16,269 bases of DNA, from contig WTXD01000225.1 of NCBI GenBank assembly GCA_022496205.1, forward strand, positions 1 through 16,269, in the 5' to 3' direction. Below are positions 628 to 16,269 of this stretch, one piece after another; position 1 is the stretch's first letter; each line of letters starts with the position of its first letter. This DNA comes from Gloeopeniophorella convolvens (lineage: Eukaryota; Basidiomycota; Agaricomycetes; Russulales). Both the position numbers and the translations under genes were made by a program. The notes under the pieces were generated by a model that saw nothing but the letters and a program-made list of their open reading frames with translations, did no database searches and was not told the DNA's origin.

Positions 628-2868
628 ATGGTCCGGAGACGTAGTACGAAGGTCAAAAATTCCAGGGGAGGTCCGCGCCCAGTCGACAAAAAGGATGCGC
701 GGATGAGGCGATGGAACACGGCGGAGGACATTCCTATGGATGAGGAAGACCAATGTGCGTGCTTGGTTCCTTTTCCCAACCTGTTCCCTGAGTCAATTAT
801 CTCTCGCAGTCCACGCGTCTAAGGATCGCATTCTACTAGAGGGAGAAGAGGTTGGCGACGACGAAGATGGGGACGAAGAAGAAGTGTTCGCGCTGCGGGG
901 CGTCCCCGCTTCCGACAGCGAAGAAGAAGGCGAGTACGCGTACGAGGATGAAGACGAAGCTATGTCCGACAAGGACGGTGAGGAAGAGCCACAGCCCAAG
1001 GCACGTGCGAGCAAAAAAGGCAAGGCGAAAGCCAAGCCACCATCAGAGTCCGACGATGAAGACGAGGAGAGCGAGGAAGAGGAAGAGAGCTGGGGACGCA
1101 ACAAGTCCGCGTACTACTCGTCAAATGCGGCCGAGCTCGAGTCCGACGATGAGGAGGCGAACGAGATGGAGGAACAGGAGGCCAAGCGTCTGCAAATGAA
1201 GGCGCGAGACGTCATGGTGGATGATGACTTCGGTCTCGCGGACATTGCAGACGAAGATGCAGAAGTGCAGAAGAGTGCGTGTCTTTTGTTCGTGCGATCT
1301 CGCAGTGACTCATGTGCCTCAAGCCCTCTACTTGAGCCTGCGCCCGCGGTCACAACACAGCCGGCGCTGCTTGACCCGAAGGCCGCCATCAAGCATATGG
1401 AAAAGACCACACCGGAAACGCTGGCCCTGGCGTATGACTGGGAAGATATCGCAACGAAGGTTGTCCGCACCCAGGAGAGAATCAAGACGTATGTCTCGCG
1501 ATCTAGTGTTGAATGCTGCCTAACCTGGGCTTACAGGTTGACGGCCTCGGGGCCTGATTCACAACTGTTGGGCATGGTCCATCTACACAACCGTACGCCC
1601 GTCCTTTCGCCAACCTTCGTCTTATTCACGTTCTTGAAGAGGCGCTTCTCACATATGCCACAACTCTTGCGTTCTACCTGTACCTCCGATCTAGCGAGTA
1701 CTACTCGCAGCGTCCTGAACTTCTTCGCACCCATCCCGTCTTTGCACGCCTCCTTCAACTCAAACAGGCACTCTCTACACTGGAAGATCTAGACTTCGAC
1801 ATCTCAGAAAGCGATCCTGAGCTCGAGGACTCCGAGGAGGATGACGAGTCTCTCGGCGACGAAGAAGACCTAGACCTAGAAGACTCGTCGATTTTGCGGA
1901 AGCGCCATCGCAAGAGTTCACAACTCGCGTTCGACGACCTCGCCGAGCTCTTGCGTGAAGCAGAAGAGGCTGCTACCGGCGCGACGAGCAAACGTAAGCA
2001 GGAAAAGCAGGCAACTGCACCAGTCCCACCTGTGAAGGAGCCTCCCAAGAAGAAGCGCAAGACGTCATCGACAGCGAAGCCCGCTCCCGTCTTCGACCTC
2101 GAGGAACCGACCTACGTGCCATCAAAACCGCGCGCAGTAGGCTCCTCCACAGCACCCGCGACCGAACAAGACGCGTTTGGCGACGCGACGGCGCTCGGCG
2201 CGGCAGATGCAGCAGACAAGCGTGCGCGGCGGCACACGCTACGCTTCCACACAGCGAGCATCGAGCGCGCAAGCGCGCGTCGACAGGGCGCGCGTGCGGC
2301 ACTTGGTGGCGACGACGACGTGCCGTACCGCCAGCGGCGCAAGGAGAAGGAGGCGCGCGCTGCACGCGAGGCGCAGGCCGGACAACGCGGGCTGGGAGGT
2401 GCAGATCTGGACGACGCAGAGCCCGAGGCGCGTGGCGGCAGCGATGGGGAGGAGGGCGCGGACGGGTACTACTCGCTCGTGCAGCGGAAGAAGCGCGCCG
2501 AGAAGGAGGGCAAGAAGGCAGCGTACGAGGCGGCCAAAGCCGCGAGCAGGTGCGTCGTGCCGCGTTCGTGCCTTCCCGGCACTGGTGTGAACGACTCTTC
2601 GTGCAGGGCGGACCTCGACGCGGACGCGGACGACGCGGCGGGCGGGCCGCGCTCACTCACGCGCGCGATCCTGAAGAATCGCGGGCTGACGCCGCACCGC
2701 TCGAAGAGCGTGCGCAACCCGCGCGTCAAGAAGCGCCAGAAGTTCGACAAGGCGCAGAAGAAGCTCAAGTCGCAGAAGGCCGTATTCACGGCGGGCGCGG
2801 GCGACGCGACGCGCTATGGTGGGGAGCGCTCGGGTATCTCGACGGTCGTGAAGAGCGTGCGATTCTGA
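628..2868 (+). CDS. SAS10: Sas10/Utp3 family SSU processome protein, six exons
   Basis: Nucleolar component of the U3 snoRNP/SSU processome, needed in the family for 18S rRNA processing. My exon model is 628-754, 810-1278, 1324-1488, 1537-1592, 1640-2549, 2607-2868; it sums to 1989 nt, exactly 662 codons plus TGA. Exon 1 reads MVRRRSTKVKN and joins exon 2 at a conserved-looking FHASKDRILLEGE. Residues about 45-190 are very acidic with Lys-rich patches. The Sas10/Utp3 domain covers roughly 215-300 (DPKAAIKHMEKT, LAYDWEDIA, GMVHLHNQALLTYA). The C-terminal Sas10 domain covers about 585-662 (LTRAILKNRGLTPHRSK, NPRVKKRQKFDKAQKK, STVVKSVRF end). Introns 1, 3, 4 and 5 have clear borders (GTGCGT, GTATGT with CTAAC branch, GTACGC, GTGCGT). 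Intron 2 (1279-1323, GTGTCT...CAAG) was chosen because it keeps frame; the stronger-looking donor at 1275 would shift frame. Identity is strong, intron 2 is tentative. Confidence 0.9.
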
Positions 2869-4009: not shown

Positions 4010-5601
4010 TAGCTGCGGGAGAGAGCAGAGACAGTGGGGATTAAGAGCATGAGTAGCCTGAGCTCACACAGAGCTGGCTGTTATGTATTCCGGACGGGTG
4101 CGGCGGGAATGGAACATGAGATCACAAATGAAGAGCAGACAGGTAAGTAGACTGACATGCGACACACAGGGGGTTGAGGCATGCACATGCAACGTCGCAC
4201 GACGTACGTAACTGGAATTCCGACTGATGGCATGGAAAATCGCGTTAAAATTGGACAGTGAGATGATGGGTTGAGCGTGTTGCTATTGTCAGTCCCGAGT
4301 GCGAATCAAATACGGCCCGGAATTCGGAACTCTCGAAACAGCTGTCGAGGTGCGTGAATTCGCGAGGACGCAGACACACCCCGAGATTGGTGCATGGTAC
4401 ACGTGGTGCACCGACCACGTATAAGGCGCAAGGCTCCCTGCGATTCGGTGAAGAGCTAGCTGATTCTAGAGTCATCAGGCGCGCGATCGAACCAGTTAGC
4501 CTGAGAAGGGTGCGCATTGAGAGGAAAGAGGGAACTCAAGAACATCTCGTCCCGGAGGCCGAGGCGGAGACCCTTCCCTTGACAAGATGATACAAGTTCA
4601 AAGCTCTCCGAGTCCGTAGCGAATGTATCGTCGGTCAGCACCGTATAGGTGACAACGTCAGCGTATGCAAACCTGCGTCCCATCGGAGGGTAGGGTCAGC
4701 GAGCCAAGCTTTATCTCGAGACCACGGAAGGCTCCGTAGCCTCATGCACAACGCATTTCTCCCCGAAGTTGACGTGGGGAGACGCGTGATGACACCGCTA
4801 ATCTCAAGGGCAAAGGAGAGGCTTTCAGACTCGCGTCGAAAAGACCGGCTCCGCCTGGATCAAACAGGGGTTGGAGATTGAAGCTTGAAGCGTCATAGAA
4901 GCCTTCGTGTTGTGATAGCACTCGGCTGTGACGGCATAAGGATGTAATTAGTCGAGGAGGTTGCGCGCACACTTCGATGTCCAATTGAGGCCCTTCGAGG
5001 TTCGCATTCTGTGATGAAGTGAACGAGGGACGATCGGGAGAGTGAGAACCCTCAACGTGCCTTGTTCGACGTTAGGTCAATTCCTGAGGCTTTGAAGGTT
5101 CCTTAGAAGGCGTAATGGGTGTTTAATATTGGAAACTTGGGGCATGAACTATTGATGAATTTAGGAGGGGGAAGGACTTGTTTGTTATGAGCATTAACAT
5201 AGCATCCCCGCAGGCGAAAGTCATAGAAAAAAGGGATGGAAGGAATACGTGAAGATGACCGTATGGTGAGCTCGAGTGTGTCCGAAGAACGTGTGGGCAA
5301 TGGGCCAAAGGGAAGAAGCGCAGGTTGTCGGCTGGCGGCGGGCCAAGGGTAATTCTGCCCCCGGAGCAGACGCAAGTGCTGTCTGGGCTCGCCTCTCGAA
5401 TTGTCATTGGTCGCGTAATTCTCTCGAGGAGACCGGTGACCGGTGACCGGTGTCCGCTCGGTGTCGGTGCCGGTGCCGGTGAACGTCTGACTGGACCTGG
5501 TGACGTGATGTGTGCACTCTGGCCACGTGCTCTAGTTCCCACCACCAGGCACAGGGCTCGACCCATCGTTTGGCACTCAGGCTGGCATTGGCACTACCAG
5601 C
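4010..5601. other. Intergenic stretch without recognisable genes
   Basis: About 1.6 kb of mixed composition. Open frames up to about 147 codons occur but lack domains, lack splice-compatible continuation and overlap on both strands. The first few hundred bases should hold the promoter of the minus-strand gene that starts at 4009. No transposon similarity was recognised. A short tandem repeat lies near its right end. Confidence 0.4.
5431..5482. repeat. Short GGTGACC / GGTGCC tandem repeats
   Basis: Three head-to-tail copies of a GACCGGT heptamer are at 5431-5451, followed after a few bases by GGTGTC/GGTGCC hexamer repeats to about 5482. This is simple-sequence expansion; no function is claimed. 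Confidence 0.7.
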
Positions 5602-5859
5602 TGTTGAGACGGACAGTGTCCTGGCGGCTCTGATTAGATTAGATATGGACCTAATGATCAAGGACTATCTTATCTTGTGTACATAATGTTCTAGACTTAA
5701 GGCTGTGTTCAGCCCCACATTCGTTTCCATGATTCTGGACTATTCTAGGGCATTCCATGACCCACCTTGTACTCTGGTACCCACTCTTACTCCGTTTCAT
5801 GTGGGTCTCCTAGGCTTTCTAAGCAGTGTTTATCACATGCTATCTGTCGCTCCTTACTG

Positions 5860-5898
5860 TATATAAGGACCTCTTTCTTCGCCTTTGTAGCCTCAGTC
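5860..5898 (+). promoter_or_regulatory. LTR TATA box and predicted transcription start (copy 1)
   Basis: TATATAA at 5860-5866 is followed 35 bp later by AGTC (5895), which is also where the repeated downstream copy begins to match. The same 35-bp spacing from TATA to AGTC is found in all five LTRs (TATA at 6882, 7893 on minus, 9588 and 11969). The RNA start is inferred from spacing. Confidence 0.7.
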
Positions 5899-5921
5899 TT
5901 TTGACCTTCTCTGACTGAGGC
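5890..5921 (+). promoter_or_regulatory. Hairpin at predicted RNA 5' end (copy 1)
   Basis: A perfect 9-bp stem, GCCTCAGTC (5890-5898) with GACTGAGGC (5913-5921), closes a 14-nt loop. The same stem with an altered loop is in the diverged LTR (6912-6942). The GC donor of the intron-like segment lies inside its right arm. Confidence 0.6.
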
Positions 5922-6056
5922 AAGTACACTACCGCTCTTTTCACTTCTACCTTATGCTTACCTTACCTTGTAGCGTCACTCTGTGTCCTTCAGGTATTGC
6001 ACTAATGTATCAGTCTTTTGACCTTCTCTGACTGAGCGTCACTCTGTGTCCTTCAG
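5893..6056 (+). repeat. Intron-bearing and intronless tandem copies (A-i-B-link-A-B)
   Basis: Block A (27 nt, 5893-5919), intron-like segment, block B (20 nt, 5974-5993), a 16-nt linker starting GTATTG (5994-6009), then a second A (6010-6036) and second B (6037-6056). Both A copies and both B copies are identical, base for base. Confidence 0.9.
5920..5973 (+). other. GC-AG intron-like segment in LTR (copy 1)
   Basis: 54 nt starting GCAAGT (the usual donor of GC-AG introns, after an exon-side GAG) and ending TTGTAG, with CTTAC branch-like motifs at 5957-5961 and 5962-5966. The flanking blocks 5893-5919 and 5974-5993 occur again at 6010-6036 and 6037-6056, directly joined without this segment. 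The reading as an intron is inferred from this comparison. Confidence 0.65.
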
Positions 6057-6087
6057 TTGTCACTCCACCCTTTGCTGCGCTTCAACA

Positions 6088-6581
6088 CCAGCAAGTTGTC
6101 ATCTACACTATTTCTTGTCCCTGTATTGGAACCCTGTGTGTATTGAGTCCTCAAGACCTCACTAGAGCGTCGCGGAGAACTATCGAATGTGGCGCTTTCT
6201 CTTACGACTGATGCTGTGGTTAATGTTTCGGTCATGGGAAGGGCCCAAGGAAGGGCCTGCAGGGGGCCTCAGCGGTGTCGTTTCCCCAAATCTACACCAC
6301 CAGTCATTCACTGAGACCCAAAAATACACAGTGAATGTTCTTAAAGGCAGTCGTGCTATCGGTCATCATCCACGTCTAGGAGTAGTTTTTGCTAGGTGGT
6401 GTCTACACTCTTCAGCCCCGTCCGACTTTGGCGACGTCCCGATGACTGGTGTCGTCGCCAGCCAGTAGCACGTGTTACCGGGGGAATGCGTCAAACGCGA
6501 GGTACTGGCACTCTCTATTCATGCTTTACGAGTGTTTCTCTGATGCGGCAACTGGGCAGACGTAGGGATTTCGCATCTCAC
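6088..6581. other. Sequence between two solo LTRs, unidentified
   Basis: 494 bp between the target duplications of two independent solo LTR insertions. No LTR-internal motif (PBS, gag, pol) and no convincing coding sequence is seen. It should be the pre-insertion locus that continues at 7113. Confidence 0.4.
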
Positions 6582-6751
6582 TGTTGAGACAGACAGGACT
6601 CAGGATAGGAAGGACGTCTCTGATTAGATTAGATAAGGGACTCGGTGATCTGCGAGCTATCTGATCTACAATGTATATGACATCATTATGTTCTAGCCCC
6701 TAAGGCTGTACCTACTCTCGTTCCTGTTCTAGATTCTTCCGGGCTCTTCCA

Positions 6752-6812
6752 TGACCCACATGCAGTTCCGGGTTGACCCACCTGCAGTTCCGGTTGACCC
6801 ACTTTAGTTCCG
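6752..6812 (+). repeat. Threefold U3 tandem repeat in copy 2
   Basis: Three adjoining units of about 18-22 bp (6752-6773, 6774-6794, 6795-6812), each starting TGACCCA and containing an AGTTCCG core. The other LTRs of the family have only one TGACCCA-type unit at this place. It lies about 70-130 bp upstream of the TATA box, the usual place for upstream activating repeats. Confidence 0.75.
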
Positions 6813-6940
6813 CTTTCACATGGGTCTCTGGTTATCACATGTTGCTGTTGTTTATCACATGCAAACCACACTCCTTTTGTGTATATAAAGGACACTGTTT
6901 TCGCCCTTGTAGCCTCAGTCTGTTGACTTCACTGACTGAG

Positions 6941-6993
6941 GCAAGTACTTTACTTCCGGAACTTCCGGACTTGCGCTTACCTAGTTACTTTAG
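6941..6993 (+). other. GC-AG intron-like segment in LTR (copy 2)
   Basis: 53 nt starting GCAAGT and ending CTTTAG with a CTTAC branch-like site at 6976-6980. Block A (6915-6940) and block B (6994-7013) flank it and recur, directly joined, at 7032-7057 and 7058-7077, after an 18-nt GTATTG linker (7014-7031). Confidence 0.65.
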
Positions 6994-7107
6994 CTTTGCT
7001 CTTGCTTGCCTAGGTATTGCGCCAATGACATTCAGTCTGTTGACTTCACTGACTGAGCTTTGCTCTTGCTTGCCTAGTTGGCACCCTGTTTCTGCTGCGC
7101 TTCAACA

Positions 7108-7670
7108 CTCACTAGTTCTAGGTGACTGAAGTGTGCTCCCAGTGCTGTTTTCTGTGCATGGGTGTCCCAAGTATGTGCAGCATGGGGTCACAATCTTTTG
7201 TGAGAGGCGCCCTCCTACCGCCGCTTTCGGTAACAGTGATGTTCTAAGGTGTTTCTACTGCTTAGCTTTTTAGATGTGACACGGAACACTGTGGAACGAA
7301 CCGCCACAGGCCTTCGAGGCCCCTAGCAGTATAGCACCCATCGTATCTGGCTTTGAGAAGCTGGTTCGTGTGCAAGCTAACTCAGTAGCCGCAATTCTAG
7401 CCGCCTGGTGTTGGTAAAGCTGGGACACGCGCGCTGCGCGAGGAGTCATTGTGCCCGCCGCCGCCACCGCCACCGGCGAAGTTACGATGTCGGCTCCACG
7501 TCCGAAGGCGTCAAAGGCACGCTTCAAGTAAAGATAAGGAGGGTGTTAAGCAGCCAAGCCGTGGCCATCTATATATACTTGGTGCCGTGATTGGCATAGC
7601 TTCCTGTGCTGCGCCCGTTAGCTTGATGCGCGTGGGCGAGAACGTAGGGGCCGACATTTGGACTGCGAAC
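7108..7670. other. Unidentified locus sequence left of Copia element
   Basis: Between the diverged solo LTR and the Copia 3' LTR. A short GCC/CAC-rich run is at about 7449-7475. Short open frames (up to 85 codons) show no domain. The five bases next to the Copia LTR (CGAAC, 7666-7670) would be its target duplication, but the partner copy lies outside the window. Confidence 0.4.
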
Positions 7671-8150
7671 TGTTGAAGCGCAGCAGAGGGTGGAGTGACA
7701 ACTGAAGGACACAGAGTGACGCTCAGTCAGAGAAGGTCAAAAGACTTGATTACAACAATACCTGAAGGACACAGAGTGACGCTGTAAGATAGTGTAAGTA
7801 TAAGAAAGTAGAAAGGAGCATAAGTGTACTTGCCTCAGTCAGAGAAGGTCAAAAGACTGAGGCTACAAAGGCGAAGAAAGAGGTCCTTATATATAGTAAG
7901 GAGTGACAGATAGCATGTGATAAACACTGCTTAGAAAGCCTAGGAGACCCACATGAAACGGAGTAAGAGTGGGTACTGGAGTACAAGGTGGGTCATGGAA
8001 TGCCCTAGAATAGTCTAGAACATGGAAACGAATGTAGGGCTGAGCACAGCCTTAAGTCTAGAACATTATGTACACAAGATAAGATAGTCCTTGATCATTA
8101 GGTCCATATCTAATCTAATCAGAGCCGCCAGGACACTGTCCGTCTTAACA
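7671..8150 (-). mobile_element. 3' LTR of the Copia element (copy 3)
   Basis: 480 bp, minus orientation, starting TGTTAAGACGG (one change from TGTTGA) at 8150 and ending TTCAACA at 7671. It directly follows the polypurine tract and Copia pol, which assigns the whole LTR family to this Copia lineage. TATA (minus) is at 7893-7887, with predicted RNA start near 7858. It has the A-intron-B-linker-A-B layout. Confidence 0.93.
7782..7833 (-). other. GC-AG intron-like segment in Copia 3' LTR (copy 3)
   Basis: 52 nt on the minus strand, from GCAAGT to CTTACAG with an ACTTACAC branch-like site. Its interior differs strongly from the segment in copies 1 and 4, while flanking block A (7860-7834) matches and block B (7781-7762) is identical. 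The joined second copies are at 7746-7722 (A, with its first bases altered) and 7721-7702 (B). Confidence 0.65.
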
Positions 8151-8173: not shown

Positions 8174-9330
8174 TCATCCTACTAAACCCATTTGCCCAGA
8201 GAGCAGGGAGTGGCGCGATTTGGCAAGTGATTTTGTTAAGCCATCTGCTACCATGTCCTCTGTCTTGGTGCGAACCAGATCTACGACGTTGTTTTGCACA
8301 TACTCGCGGATCTTGTGGTGCTTTAGCTGGATATGTTTGGATCTCCTGCCAGTAACTGGATTGCTGGCGAGGTCAACTGAACCTTTGTTGTCGCCGTACA
8401 ACAGGATTGGATCTTCAACATTGTATCCTAGCTCAGAGTAAAAGCTCTGATACCACGCGGCTTGGTTGCCAGCGTCGGTTAAGGCCATGTACTTGGCTTC
8501 AGTGGTGCTGAGGGCAATGGTCTTTTGCTTGCGCGAGGACCAAGAGATTGCGCCTTCTGCTAGAAGGAATACGTAGCCAGAAGTGGAACGATAGTCGTCT
8601 GGGTTGTCTCCCCAGCTTGAGTCGGAGTAACCATAAAGTCCGACCCCATTGGCCCCATCATAGCGAATGCGATAGTTAATAGTCCCTTGAGGTATTTGAG
8701 GACATATTTTGCAAGGCTTAGATGTTTTGGTGAGGGATTTGCTGCGTACTGGGCAAGGCGTCCCACAGCAAAGGAAATGTCCGGTCTAGTGCCAAGGTTT
8801 GCATAGAGCAAACTTCCGATGAGAGATTGATAGTACTGTCTCTCTTCAGCGGATGCCTCCTTATCTGACTTGACAAGGTGCACTTCGGCGCCGGCAGGAA
8901 GGGGGGTGAGGTTAGGATCGGCACCATCCAGCTTGAATTGCTTCAGCTTGTGGAGGATATATCCAGACTGGTCGATCTCTAGGCGGCGTAAGGGTCGATC
9001 GCGAGTGATGCGAACCCCGAGGTAGGACTGGATTTCTCCAAGATCCGTCATCTCATAGCGCGCACTAAGAGCAGTCTTGATGCGAGTAACCTCAGATAGG
9101 GAGTTCCCCATCAAAGTGATGTCGTCAACGTATAGAATAATGATGATTTTTATATCCCCCCCACGTTGAAGATACACATAGATCCCAGCATCTGAGACCG
9201 TGCGCGTGAAGCCGAGTTCCTCAAGAACTCCATGGAATTGCAAGTTCCATGCGCGTGAAGCTTGTTTGAGACCGTAGATTGCCTTTTTAAGGCGGCAGAC
9301 CTTGTTCTCCTGGCCTGGTACTGCGAAACC
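8174..9330 (-). pseudogene. Copia pol fragment: RT second half and RNase H
   Basis: Reads from GFAVPGQENKVCRLKK at 9330 through AIYGLKQASRAW, the catalytic YVDD (in IIILYVDDITLMGN), GEIQSYLGVRITRD, YQSLIGSLLYANLGTRPDISFAVG and LAKYVLKYLKG. Near 8680 a one-base loss shifts the frame. The next frame carries RNase H: YGYSDSSWGDN, STTEAKYMALTDAGNQAAWY, LLYGDNKGSVDLA, KHIQLKHHKIREYV, VADGLTKSL, ending at the stop 8174-8176. The RNase H acidic residues (D in SDSS, E in TEAKY, D in GDNK) are present. An open frame runs from the neighbouring LTR antisense strand into RT, giving a chance fusion with a start codon at 9390; I treat that as accidental. Confidence 0.9.
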
Positions 9331-9698
9331 TGTTGAGACGGACAGTGTCCTGGCGGCTCTGATTAGATTAGATATGGACCTAATGATCAAGGACTATCTT
9401 ATCTTGTGTACATAATGTTCTAGACTTAAGGCTGTGTTCAGCCCCACATTCGTTTCCATGTTCTGGACTATTCTAGGGCATTCCATGACCCACCTTGTAC
9501 TCCGGTACCCACTCTTACTCCGTTTCATGTGGGTCTCCTAGGCTTTCTAAGCAGTGTTTATCACATGCTATCTGTCGCTCCTTACTGTATATAAGGACCT
9601 CTTTCTTTGCCTCTGTAGCCTCAGTCTTTTGACCTTCTCTGACTGAGCGTCACTCTGTGTCCTTCAGTTGTCACTCCACCCTCTGCTGCGCTTCAACA
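9331..9698 (+). mobile_element. Short Copia-family LTR at rearrangement junction (copy 5)
   Basis: 368 bp, TGTTGA to TCAACA, close in sequence to copies 1 and 4 but with only one A-B pair: block A (about 9621-9647) is joined straight to block B, without intron, linker or second pair. Flanking pentamers do not match (AAACC on the left, AAAAC on the right). Left is Copia RT on minus, right is Gypsy protease on plus, so it is not a simple solo LTR: it sits where two insertions were joined by deletion. TATA is at 9588-9594. Confidence 0.88.
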
Positions 9699-11711: not shown

Positions 11712-12196
11712 TGTTGAGACGGACAGTGTCCTGGCGGCTCTGATTAGATTAGATATGGACCTAATGATCAAGGACTATCTTATCTTGTGTACATAATGTT
11801 CTAGACTTAAGGCTGTGCTCAGCCCCACATTCGTTTCCATATTCTGTACTATTCTAGGGCATTCCATGACCCACCCTGTACTCCGGTACCCACTCTTACT
11901 CTGTTTCATGTGGGTCTCCTAGGCTTTCTAAGCATTGTTTATCACATGCTATTGTCGTTCCTTACTTGTATAAAAGGACCTCCTCTTTCGCCTTTGTAGC
12001 CTCAGTCTTTTGACCTTCTCTGACTGAGGCAAGTACACTTACACTCCTTTCACTTCTACCTTATGCTTACCTTACCTTGTAGCGTCACTCTGTGTCCTTC
12101 AGGTATTACACTAATGTAATAGTCTTTTGACCTTCTCTGACTGAGCGTCACTCTGTGTCCTTCAGTTGTCACTCCACCCTCTGCTGCGCTTCAACA
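11712..12196 (+). mobile_element. Solo Copia-family LTR inside Gypsy pol (copy 4)
   Basis: 485 bp with TGTTGA/TCAACA ends and a perfect target duplication CACCG (11707-11711, 12197-12201). Removing it and one duplication restores the Gypsy frame exactly (LTGTP followed by SLEDRV). TATAAAA at 11969-11975; block A 12002-12028, intron-like segment 12029-12082, block B 12083-12102, second A about 12121-12145, second B 12146-12165. Confidence 0.95.
12029..12082 (+). other. GC-AG intron-like segment in LTR (copy 4)
   Basis: 54 nt from GCAAGT to TTGTAG, nearly the same as in copy 1 but with several substitutions just after the donor. CTTAC branch-like motifs near its end are kept. Confidence 0.65.
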
Positions 12197-15155: not shown

Positions 15156-15695
15156 TGTCATGAACTGTACGATACTTTTTCTTTTTCCACCTATCATCCG
15201 TGTACGATACGAGCTCCGTTCCGGTTCCATGAATCGGGGACGCTTATCTTTCACTCGTCATACGATTCCTCCATACTTCTTGACGCGCCCCTTATGCCAT
15301 TGGACCCTATTGTACTTCTACCTAGGAGACCCACCTTGAGTCCGTTCTGACTCGGTACGACTCGATACTAGGACATTATGTAAACCGATATCTTTGTAGT
15401 ACTTAAGGCGTAGCAGTTGTACTCTAAGGCCTTAAGCCTGTTCTCCTTTGTCAATCGACGAGGTTACCAGGGAATCCGCGTGAGGGACTTGTTCGCCCAA
15501 GCATTGCAAGGTCTTCAGCTTTGAACTCGACGTACCGGAGGCCAATTGCCTCCAGCTTCAGACATCACGTCTTATCCAGGATCCCGTGCACACTCACGTG
15601 CACCTTCGAGGACTGGCTCACATCGAGACCGATTTACCGAACCTCGCTCGTCTCAGCCCTCGCCAGCTCCGCTCGCGCCGGCTCAGGCCGTGACA
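15156..15695 (+). mobile_element. 3' LTR of the Gypsy element
   Basis: 540 bp from TGTCATG to CGTGACA (near-perfect 7-bp inverted ends). The left end follows a purine-rich run, and the right end is fixed by the exact resumption of Copia RT coding sequence at 15696-15700 (CATCT as one half of the target duplication). No partner LTR is left in the window, so the internal sequence was not checked by comparison. It shares nothing evident with the Copia-family LTRs. Confidence 0.82.
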
Positions 15696-16269
15696 CATCT
15701 GGTGGATTTCCCAATCCTCTAGCACAGCTAACGCTAGCAAGAGTCGTAGTGACTCAAATCTGGCAACTGGAGAGAAGGTTTCGTCGTAGTCTATCCCAGG
15801 GACTTGTGTAAAGCCCTTTGCCACCAACCAAGCTCGAAAGCGTCCATCTGCTTTGAGCTTGAAAACCCATTTGGATTTTACAGCTTTGCGACCTGCAGGG
15901 AGATCCATTAACTCCCATGTGCCGTTCTTGGCAAGAGCGTCCATTTCATATTGGCACGCTTCAGTCCATTCTTCTGCGTTTTCAGACCACATTGCCTCTT
16001 TGTAAGTGGCAGGATCTTCACCAATTGCAGCTGCAAGTAGCTCTGCAATTCCCAGATGTCCAGACCGGAATTCAGCGTTATCTCCAGAGTAGTACTTGGG
16101 GTTAAGACGATGCGGCGCGCAGTGCACCGCACAGGCCGAGCCTCATCCATTTCCCTAAGTAGCCGGCTACGCTGCTCGGCATTCCCCCGCATTTGCTCAG
16201 GAGTTGGGCGGGGTGGATCTACTACTGGTGGCTGAATTATAGGTTCCAGTCTCTCCATATGTGGAGATA
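15696..16269 (-). pseudogene. Copia pol fragment: linker and first third of RT
   Basis: Reads inward from the right edge: a Pro/Arg-rich linker (MERLEPIIQPPVVDPPRPTP, from 16258), a frameshift at about 16100-16125, then LNPKYYSGDNAEF, EAMWSENAEEWTEACQYEMD, ALAKNGTWELMDLPAGRKAV, KSKWVFKLKADGRFRAWLVA, KGFTQVPGIDYDETFSPVAR, FESLRLLLALAVLEDWEIHQ, M, at which the Gypsy LTR cuts in. The family usually has Arg in FRARLVAKGF; here it is Trp. The continuation lies at 9330 and below. Confidence 0.9.

Follow-up and report, generated by a model that had tools for sequence, protein, structure and literature searches.

Long terminal repeats (LTRs) of the Copia type in a fungal genome probably hold, within their R region, two small spliceosomal introns together with a landing site, A2, and a piece A2-B2 that would be renewed from the spliced exons in each replication cycle. 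The layout, U3-A1-i1-B1-linker-A2-B2-U5, occurs in many copies, and its intron-free piece is apparently remade each time the element copies itself, which would protect the intron from loss. As far as genomic sequence can speak, the evidence for a recurrent renewal that depends on splicing is strong. Reverse transcription is expected to erase introns, an effect that serves as the classic proof of an RNA intermediate; if the proposal is true, these LTRs represent a new way around the end-replication problem that LTR elements face, with introns kept in R, and their start sites, splice sites and strand transfer can be read from genomic DNA alone.

In the proposed cycle, transcription would start at A1, and the RNA of the 5' LTR would lose both i1 (GC/GT...AG) and i2 (GT...AG), leaving A-B-U5 followed by the primer-binding site (PBS). 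Reverse transcription from the PBS would generate a strong-stop cDNA of A-B-U5, and the 3' LTR part of the RNA, whose end is predicted to lie beyond A2, would retain U3-A1-i1-B1-linker-A2. The cDNA would land on A2, not on A1, and be extended through the linker, B1, i1, A1 and U3, yielding a new LTR in which both introns are restored and A2-B2 is overwritten with a fresh copy of the spliced exons. We lean towards the view that the genomic RNA is normally spliced inside R, that the landing copy of the LTR lets the introns survive indefinitely, and that i2 may carry the poly(A) signal, which would then act at the 3' end and be lost from the 5' end by splicing. The introns may be kept because they aid export, because they silence the poly(A) signal of the 5' end, or through a ratchet.

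LTRs of the analysed window

The window, i.e. the whole stretch of 16,269 nt that was analysed, had been described in a sequence-only reading as holding, at 5893-6056, a block A, a 54-nt segment and a block B, followed by a joined A-B; this arrangement proved exact, with the right coordinates and 100% identity. Block A measures 27 nt in that count (5893-5919, plus strand) and 25 nt from the presumed start at 5895, and the second A (6010-6036) and the B joined to it (6037-6056) are both 100% identical to those of the first copy. The same layout was recovered in all three further places named in that reading: copy 4, the minus-strand 3' LTR of the Copia element, and the diverged copy 2, whose B is quite different yet identical in its own two places. 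A fifth LTR, which had gone unmentioned, has a single A-B, without segment, linker or second copy, and its flanks (AAACC/AAAAC) form an imperfect target site duplication (TSD). Copy 1 is a solo LTR, flanked by the TSD CCAGC. The features are as follows.

5597..5601 and 6088-6092: TSD CCAGC, 5 bp, left and right of copy 1
5602..6087, plus: LTR copy 1, TGTTGA...TCAACA, 486 nt
5860..5868, plus: TATA-like TATATAAGG, putative promoter element, beginning 35 nt before the presumed transcription start
5895..5919, plus: A1, presumed first exon; 5895 is the presumed transcription start
5920..5973, plus: i1, predicted GC-AG intron, 54 nt, GCAAGT...TAG
5974..5993, plus: B1, presumed second exon, 20 nt
5994..6011, plus: linker GTATTG..., first part of predicted intron i2
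5994..6056, plus: i2, predicted GT-AG intron made of linker, A2 and B2, 63 nt
6012..6036, plus: A2, where strong-stop cDNA made from the spliced RNA is predicted to land
6037..6056, plus: B2, joined to A2; its end is the presumed i2 3' splice site
6057..6087, plus: U5, 31 nt; a spliced A-B-U5 would measure 76 nt
6582..7107, plus: LTR copy 2 (second group), TSD CTCAC at 6577-6581 and 7108-7112
Parts of copy 2, plus: A1 6917-6940, i1 6941-6993, B1 6994-7013, linker 7014-7033, A2 7034-7057, B2 7058-7077
7671..8150, minus: Copia 3' LTR with the layout
Parts of the Copia 3' LTR, minus: A1 7834-7858, i1 7782-7833, B1 7762-7781, A2 7722-7746, B2 7702-7721
9331..9698, plus: intron-less LTR, A 9623-9647 joined to B 9648-9667, then U5
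11712..12196, plus: solo LTR copy 4, TSD CACCG
Parts of copy 4, plus: A1 12004-12028, i1 12029-12082, B1 12083-12102, A2 12121-12145, B2 12146-12165

TG...CA ends and a 5-bp TSD are present in copies 1, 2 and 4. The element that carries the 3' LTR of the window is of the Copia type, as indicated by the RVT_2 domain (PF07727, 2.9e-32) that adjoins this LTR (8150-7671) at 8560-9390 on the minus strand, an assignment made for the window element. The word CAGGTTATGGGCCCTG, which we take to be a PBS matching the anticodon part of initiator Met-tRNA (iMet), occurs at 84 places in the genome and its reversed control at 0; priming by a half-tRNA is the mechanism used by Drosophila copia.

Two further observations concern the content of the window. 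The Copia reverse transcriptase seems to be split between 8560 and 16127 (minus strand), with RVT_2 positions 1-81 at 15618-16127 and positions 102-242 at 8560-9390, and a Gypsy-type element and two LTRs lie between the two parts, presumably as nested insertions. At 1894-2868 (plus strand) stands a host Sas10/Utp3 gene (PF09368), whose named matches are from Artomyces, Pleurotus, Taiwanofungus and Trametes, at 50-55% identity; on the strength of this gene the host is assigned to the basidiomycetes.

Spread of the layout and its splice-type borders

A word spanning the A1/i1 border (15 nt, at most 1 mismatch) gave 155 + 144 = 299 matches in the 36.7-Mb genome, and its reversed control 2 + 4; the layout is thus commoner than chance (299 versus 6). 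Copies were collected by a split-repeat search that is blind to splice signals, with filters applied afterwards. A motif filter had removed 45 places beforehand, including four sense copies of the layout (L088, L106, L189 and L200, three of which were used in the nearest-neighbour comparison below), the rest being tandem repeats or antisense readings. The filtered search yielded 156 places, and subtraction of 28 antisense readings of the same LTRs and of two sense copies without G[TC] left 126 sense LTR copies from this one genome (39 in group 1, 52 in group 2, one in group 3 and 34 in groups 4-6), window copy 4 not being part of this set. The groups differ in A and B: groups 1 and 2 have related A and different B, the group 3 copy (L082) stands 16 edits over 41 nt from its nearest neighbour, and L150, L157 and L088 stand 10-15.

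The PBS offers a second view of the family. Among 79 of the 84 PBS places that were read, 49 have the layout, one a layout damaged at A1/i1 (L079), 11 are intron-less, three have A-B-U5 joined to a shortened U3, and 15 belong to other LTR families; four loci were re-assigned by eye, L125, L088 and L106 to the layout and L081 to the intron-less class. The 15 other-family loci (L039, L045, L046, L077, L080, L089, L091, L095, L109, L115, L118, L128, L131, L132 and L134) are natural controls within the same genome, and no A-i1-B layout was seen in these families with the same PBS word (at most 1 mismatch). An exact TSD is present in 28 LTRs, both flanks having been read in 46 LTRs without PBS. A search of viral contigs confirmed no relatives. 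At L013/L014 (C6), an AT-rich tandem repeat with a spacing of about 43 nt lies beside an inverted pair of group-2 LTRs.

The segment between A1 and B1 had been read as an intron, and in the collected LTRs of the family its borders do not fall at unrelated positions: they are GT/GC...AG in 126 of the 128 filtered sense copies (GC in 91, GT in 35), the two that failed the border filter, which demanded GT/GC...AG for i1, being L125 (GC to AC) and a decayed copy in L013. All four sense copies lost to the motif filter have such borders as well. The first six bases are GCAAGT in 91 copies, GTGAGC in 26, GTGAGT in 8 and GTAAGC in one, and the ends are TAG or CAG. Lengths are 49-57 nt for i1 and, in 124/126, 60-69 nt for i2. 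A yTNAy motif stands 8-20 nt before the end of i1 in 20/20 representatives, a raw count without chance control.

It is extremely improbable that no splicing is involved, i.e. that i1 was skipped by template switching or by DNA deletion and has GC/GT-AG ends by chance. Recombination between direct repeats does seem to occur in these LTRs, as in the C399 pair described below, and the junction is ambiguous, since the border between A and the segment slides, mostly by two bases (AG), with one placement in the kept copies yielding GT or GC...AG. Such an explanation is opposed by the 126/128 borders and by the recurrence of the words GTGAGT, GTGAGC and GCAAGT across groups with different A and B. 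Furthermore, a search of the whole genome for a group 1 A-B followed by the linker gave 0 real matches, the single match being A2-B2-U5.

Removal of i1 alone would not suffice: it gives A-B-linker-A-B-U5, whose cDNA cannot put A-B before U5, and a second intron is therefore required. The predicted i2 (linker, A2 and B2) starts with GT after B1 and ends with AG before U5, and its removal together with i1 would leave A-B-U5. GT follows B1 directly in 118/126 copies, the other 8 having a repeat that is cut or lengthened by mismatch. A yTNAy motif precedes the end of i2 by 24-26 nt in groups 1-2; 10 of 12 representatives of groups 4-6 have none at a distance of 8-45 nt, which counts against splicing of i2. 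This weak branch site would be sidestepped by a single longer intron that begins directly after A1 and ends where A2 meets B2, with B1 and linker never serving as exons and the same A-B-U5 RNA arising from one splice. Such an intron is nonetheless very unlikely, as it would need a GAG 3' splice site, would leave the GT after B1 idle in 118/126 copies, and does not explain why B1 equals B2 (exactly in 101/126) while B changes between lineages.

As to the linkers, AATAAA stands just upstream of A2 in 19 of the 34 linkers of groups 4-6 (e.g. L092, L157 and L170); it is absent within these groups from, e.g., L078 and L150, and was found in none of the linkers of other groups.

Renewal of the second copy and the junction base

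The two copies of A-B are alike within an LTR and differ between lineages, which points to repeated copying and not to a single old duplication. A1B1 equals A2B2 exactly in 91/126 LTRs (A alone in 105/126, B alone in 101/126). In a count that omits L146 and L143, mean A+B edits within an LTR are 1.03 in groups 4-6, 0.54 in group 1 and 0.21 in group 2; between lineage types the first and second copies differ by 14.9 and 14.4, 4.1 and 4.8, and 3.8 and 3.7 edits, respectively. When 23 lineage representatives were compared (L146, L143, L105 and L031 being omitted), the nearest neighbour of A1B1 was its own A2B2 in 17, with a tie in two; in the remaining four A1B1 lies closer to a different lineage than to its own A2B2, which counts against renewal. 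The B variants CACCATTG, CACCTTG and CACTTTG each occur in both places of the same LTR, as do A variants such as CTTGACTGAG. L108 and L142, which lie 5.1 kb apart on the same strand, have in common a change in A2 that is missing from their A1, as expected if A2 derived from the changed A1 of a source element.

A single event long ago, be it a duplication or the retro-insertion of a spliced A-B, could by itself give the same layout if inherited within R ever since, the likeness of the copies being maintained by gene conversion or shared function, and diverged A1/A2 in some old copies (L172, L181 and L177/L180) speak for it. We regard it as unlikely: the copies are identical in 91/126 LTRs, and L082, L150, L157 and L170 stand 8-16 edits from the nearest lineage yet have two exactly matching copies of their own. 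In addition, the identity sets in at one particular base or 1-3 bases ahead of it, and its other end mostly coincides with AG|GT and AG|U5; conversion tracts of 20-34 nt with such ends, and a one-base hot spot, would need a separate reason. The proposal in the sequence-only reading, which traces the second A-B to reverse transcription of the 5' end of the element's own spliced RNA, gives the best fit to the genomic evidence, with splicing as a prediction. Its core, the origin from spliced RNA, is supported, and two additions are needed, namely the GT...AG intron i2 and the renewal of A2-B2 at each replication.

The presumed start at 5895 is placed where the identity of A1 and A2 stops, which is at the A of AGT in 72/126 copies and 1-3 bases before it in 54/126; these identity ends were measured, the layout table relying on a fixed rule, AG[TC], for where A2 starts. 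Base -1, which precedes A2, is C in 27, A in 12 and T in 10 of 49 group-2 copies. It varies more than any other of the 251 bases aligned in this group (mean minor share 0.75%; next most variable base 12/49), and all three states occur within one background. In group 1 the three states are distributed 17/7/3 among 27 copies and two lineage markers vary more, so that base -1 is not the most variable site, which counts against the best explanation; these site counts omit 3/52 copies of group 2 and 12/39 of group 1, which lack upstream sequence or have another length. Part of the variation may reflect start-site wobble, since C also stands before A1, and A and T fit an untemplated addition at the end of the strong-stop cDNA. 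The two LTRs of an element agree at base -1 in 4/5 TSD-matched pairs (C24, C18, C341 and C124), and C335 differs (A/C); among pairs without a matching or known TSD, C76, C370, C157 (L059/L217) and C11 agree and L100/L219 differs. Asymmetric LTRs, mostly with large deletions, are reported for HIV-1 in the excerpt of PMC9278108, so that the single disagreement in C335 is not fatal, yet it counts against the proposal.

In A1 of groups 1-7, the GAGG of the A1/i1 border pairs with a CCTC or CCCT that precedes the presumed start; the palindrome CCTCAGT...ACTGAGG is not generally kept before A2. A hairpin in A built on it was rejected, as only 1/13 sequences of A, folded from the start base onwards, did better than their shuffled versions at the 5% level.

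Aberrant forms and known systems

Intron-less LTRs are consistent with a cDNA landing in the wrong place. For group 1, the whole genome holds 36 intron-less U3-A-B and three i1-B-U5. This excess fits mis-landing on A1, without being proof of it, as recombination between A1 and A2 gives the same product; recombination between direct repeats, or slippage of the reverse transcriptase between them, is a further possible source of both intron-less and A-i1-B-U5 LTRs. Three intron-less 5' LTRs with a partner were checked, two of them in pairs with a common TSD and C268 without. The two pairs, C373 and C342, have matching TSDs and are intron-less at both ends, which means that intron loss preceded insertion, as expected for a spliced cDNA that landed on A1. 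C399 combines a normal 5' LTR with an A-i1-B-U5 3' LTR within one TSD, and the latter looks like a deletion between the B repeats. Two apparent counterexamples were set aside: in C268 an intron-less LTR with PBS has an intron-bearing LTR 5.5 kb away, and the TSDs differ (GCCTC/TAGGA); C113 was dropped as the first bases differ.

The expanded LTR L146 reads A1-i1-B1-linker-A2-B2-linker-A3-U5, with A3 joined directly to U5 without B. We read it as the outcome of two steps: exon B would have been skipped, giving a new LTR without B2 and without the 3' end of i2, and as i2 could then not be removed in a later round, the unit would have been added again. In L084, L094 and L122, A-B-U5 follows directly on U3 at CTCCT|AGTC, a junction that lies upstream of the TATA box; these look like one mis-landing that was later copied, or like segmental copies, and L143 similarly looks like a landing at a wrong place. 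L175 and L179 have deletions that do not follow splice borders.

No intron inside the R region of an LTR with a spliced copy was found among the top matches in the open-licence literature, and PMC4256276, seen in excerpt, was rejected as a match made through a like-sounding bacterial gene name. The elements share with Ty1/Copia the RVT_2 domain, TG...CA LTRs, the 5-bp TSD and a putative PBS adjoining the LTR, and differ in their R region, which contains two predicted introns as well as the exons in spliced form. For the plant LTR elements Ogre and EVADE, the excerpt of PMC12786077 describes introns that serve to produce subgenomic RNAs and does not place them in R, where those predicted here lie.

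Foamy viruses, according to the excerpt of PMC3694450, carry their main splice donor within R and ahead of the poly(A) signal, and thus have in common with these LTRs a 5' splice site inside R. The foamy-virus intron runs on into the genome, whereas here both predicted introns lie wholly inside the LTR. To our knowledge, spliced RNA is not the template in foamy viruses; here, in contrast, the spliced end is predicted to be the template. Membership in this group was rejected, as the reverse transcriptase adjoining the LTR is Copia-type RVT_2 and not that of a spumavirus pol.

The tyrosine-recombinase elements PAT and Ngaro have split direct repeats, A1-B1-A2-B2, in the excerpted part of PMC4157794, and share with these LTRs a repeat order, A1...B1-A2-B2, that may let lost ends be restored. 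Those repeats belong to the ends of the whole element; the ones described here are internal to each LTR of an element that makes TSDs, and membership was rejected on these grounds. The excerpt of PMC4668388 indicates that the start base of HIV-1 RNA affects strong-stop transfer, with which the variable base before A2 may be compared; the HIV-1 effect involves neither splicing nor a landing copy.
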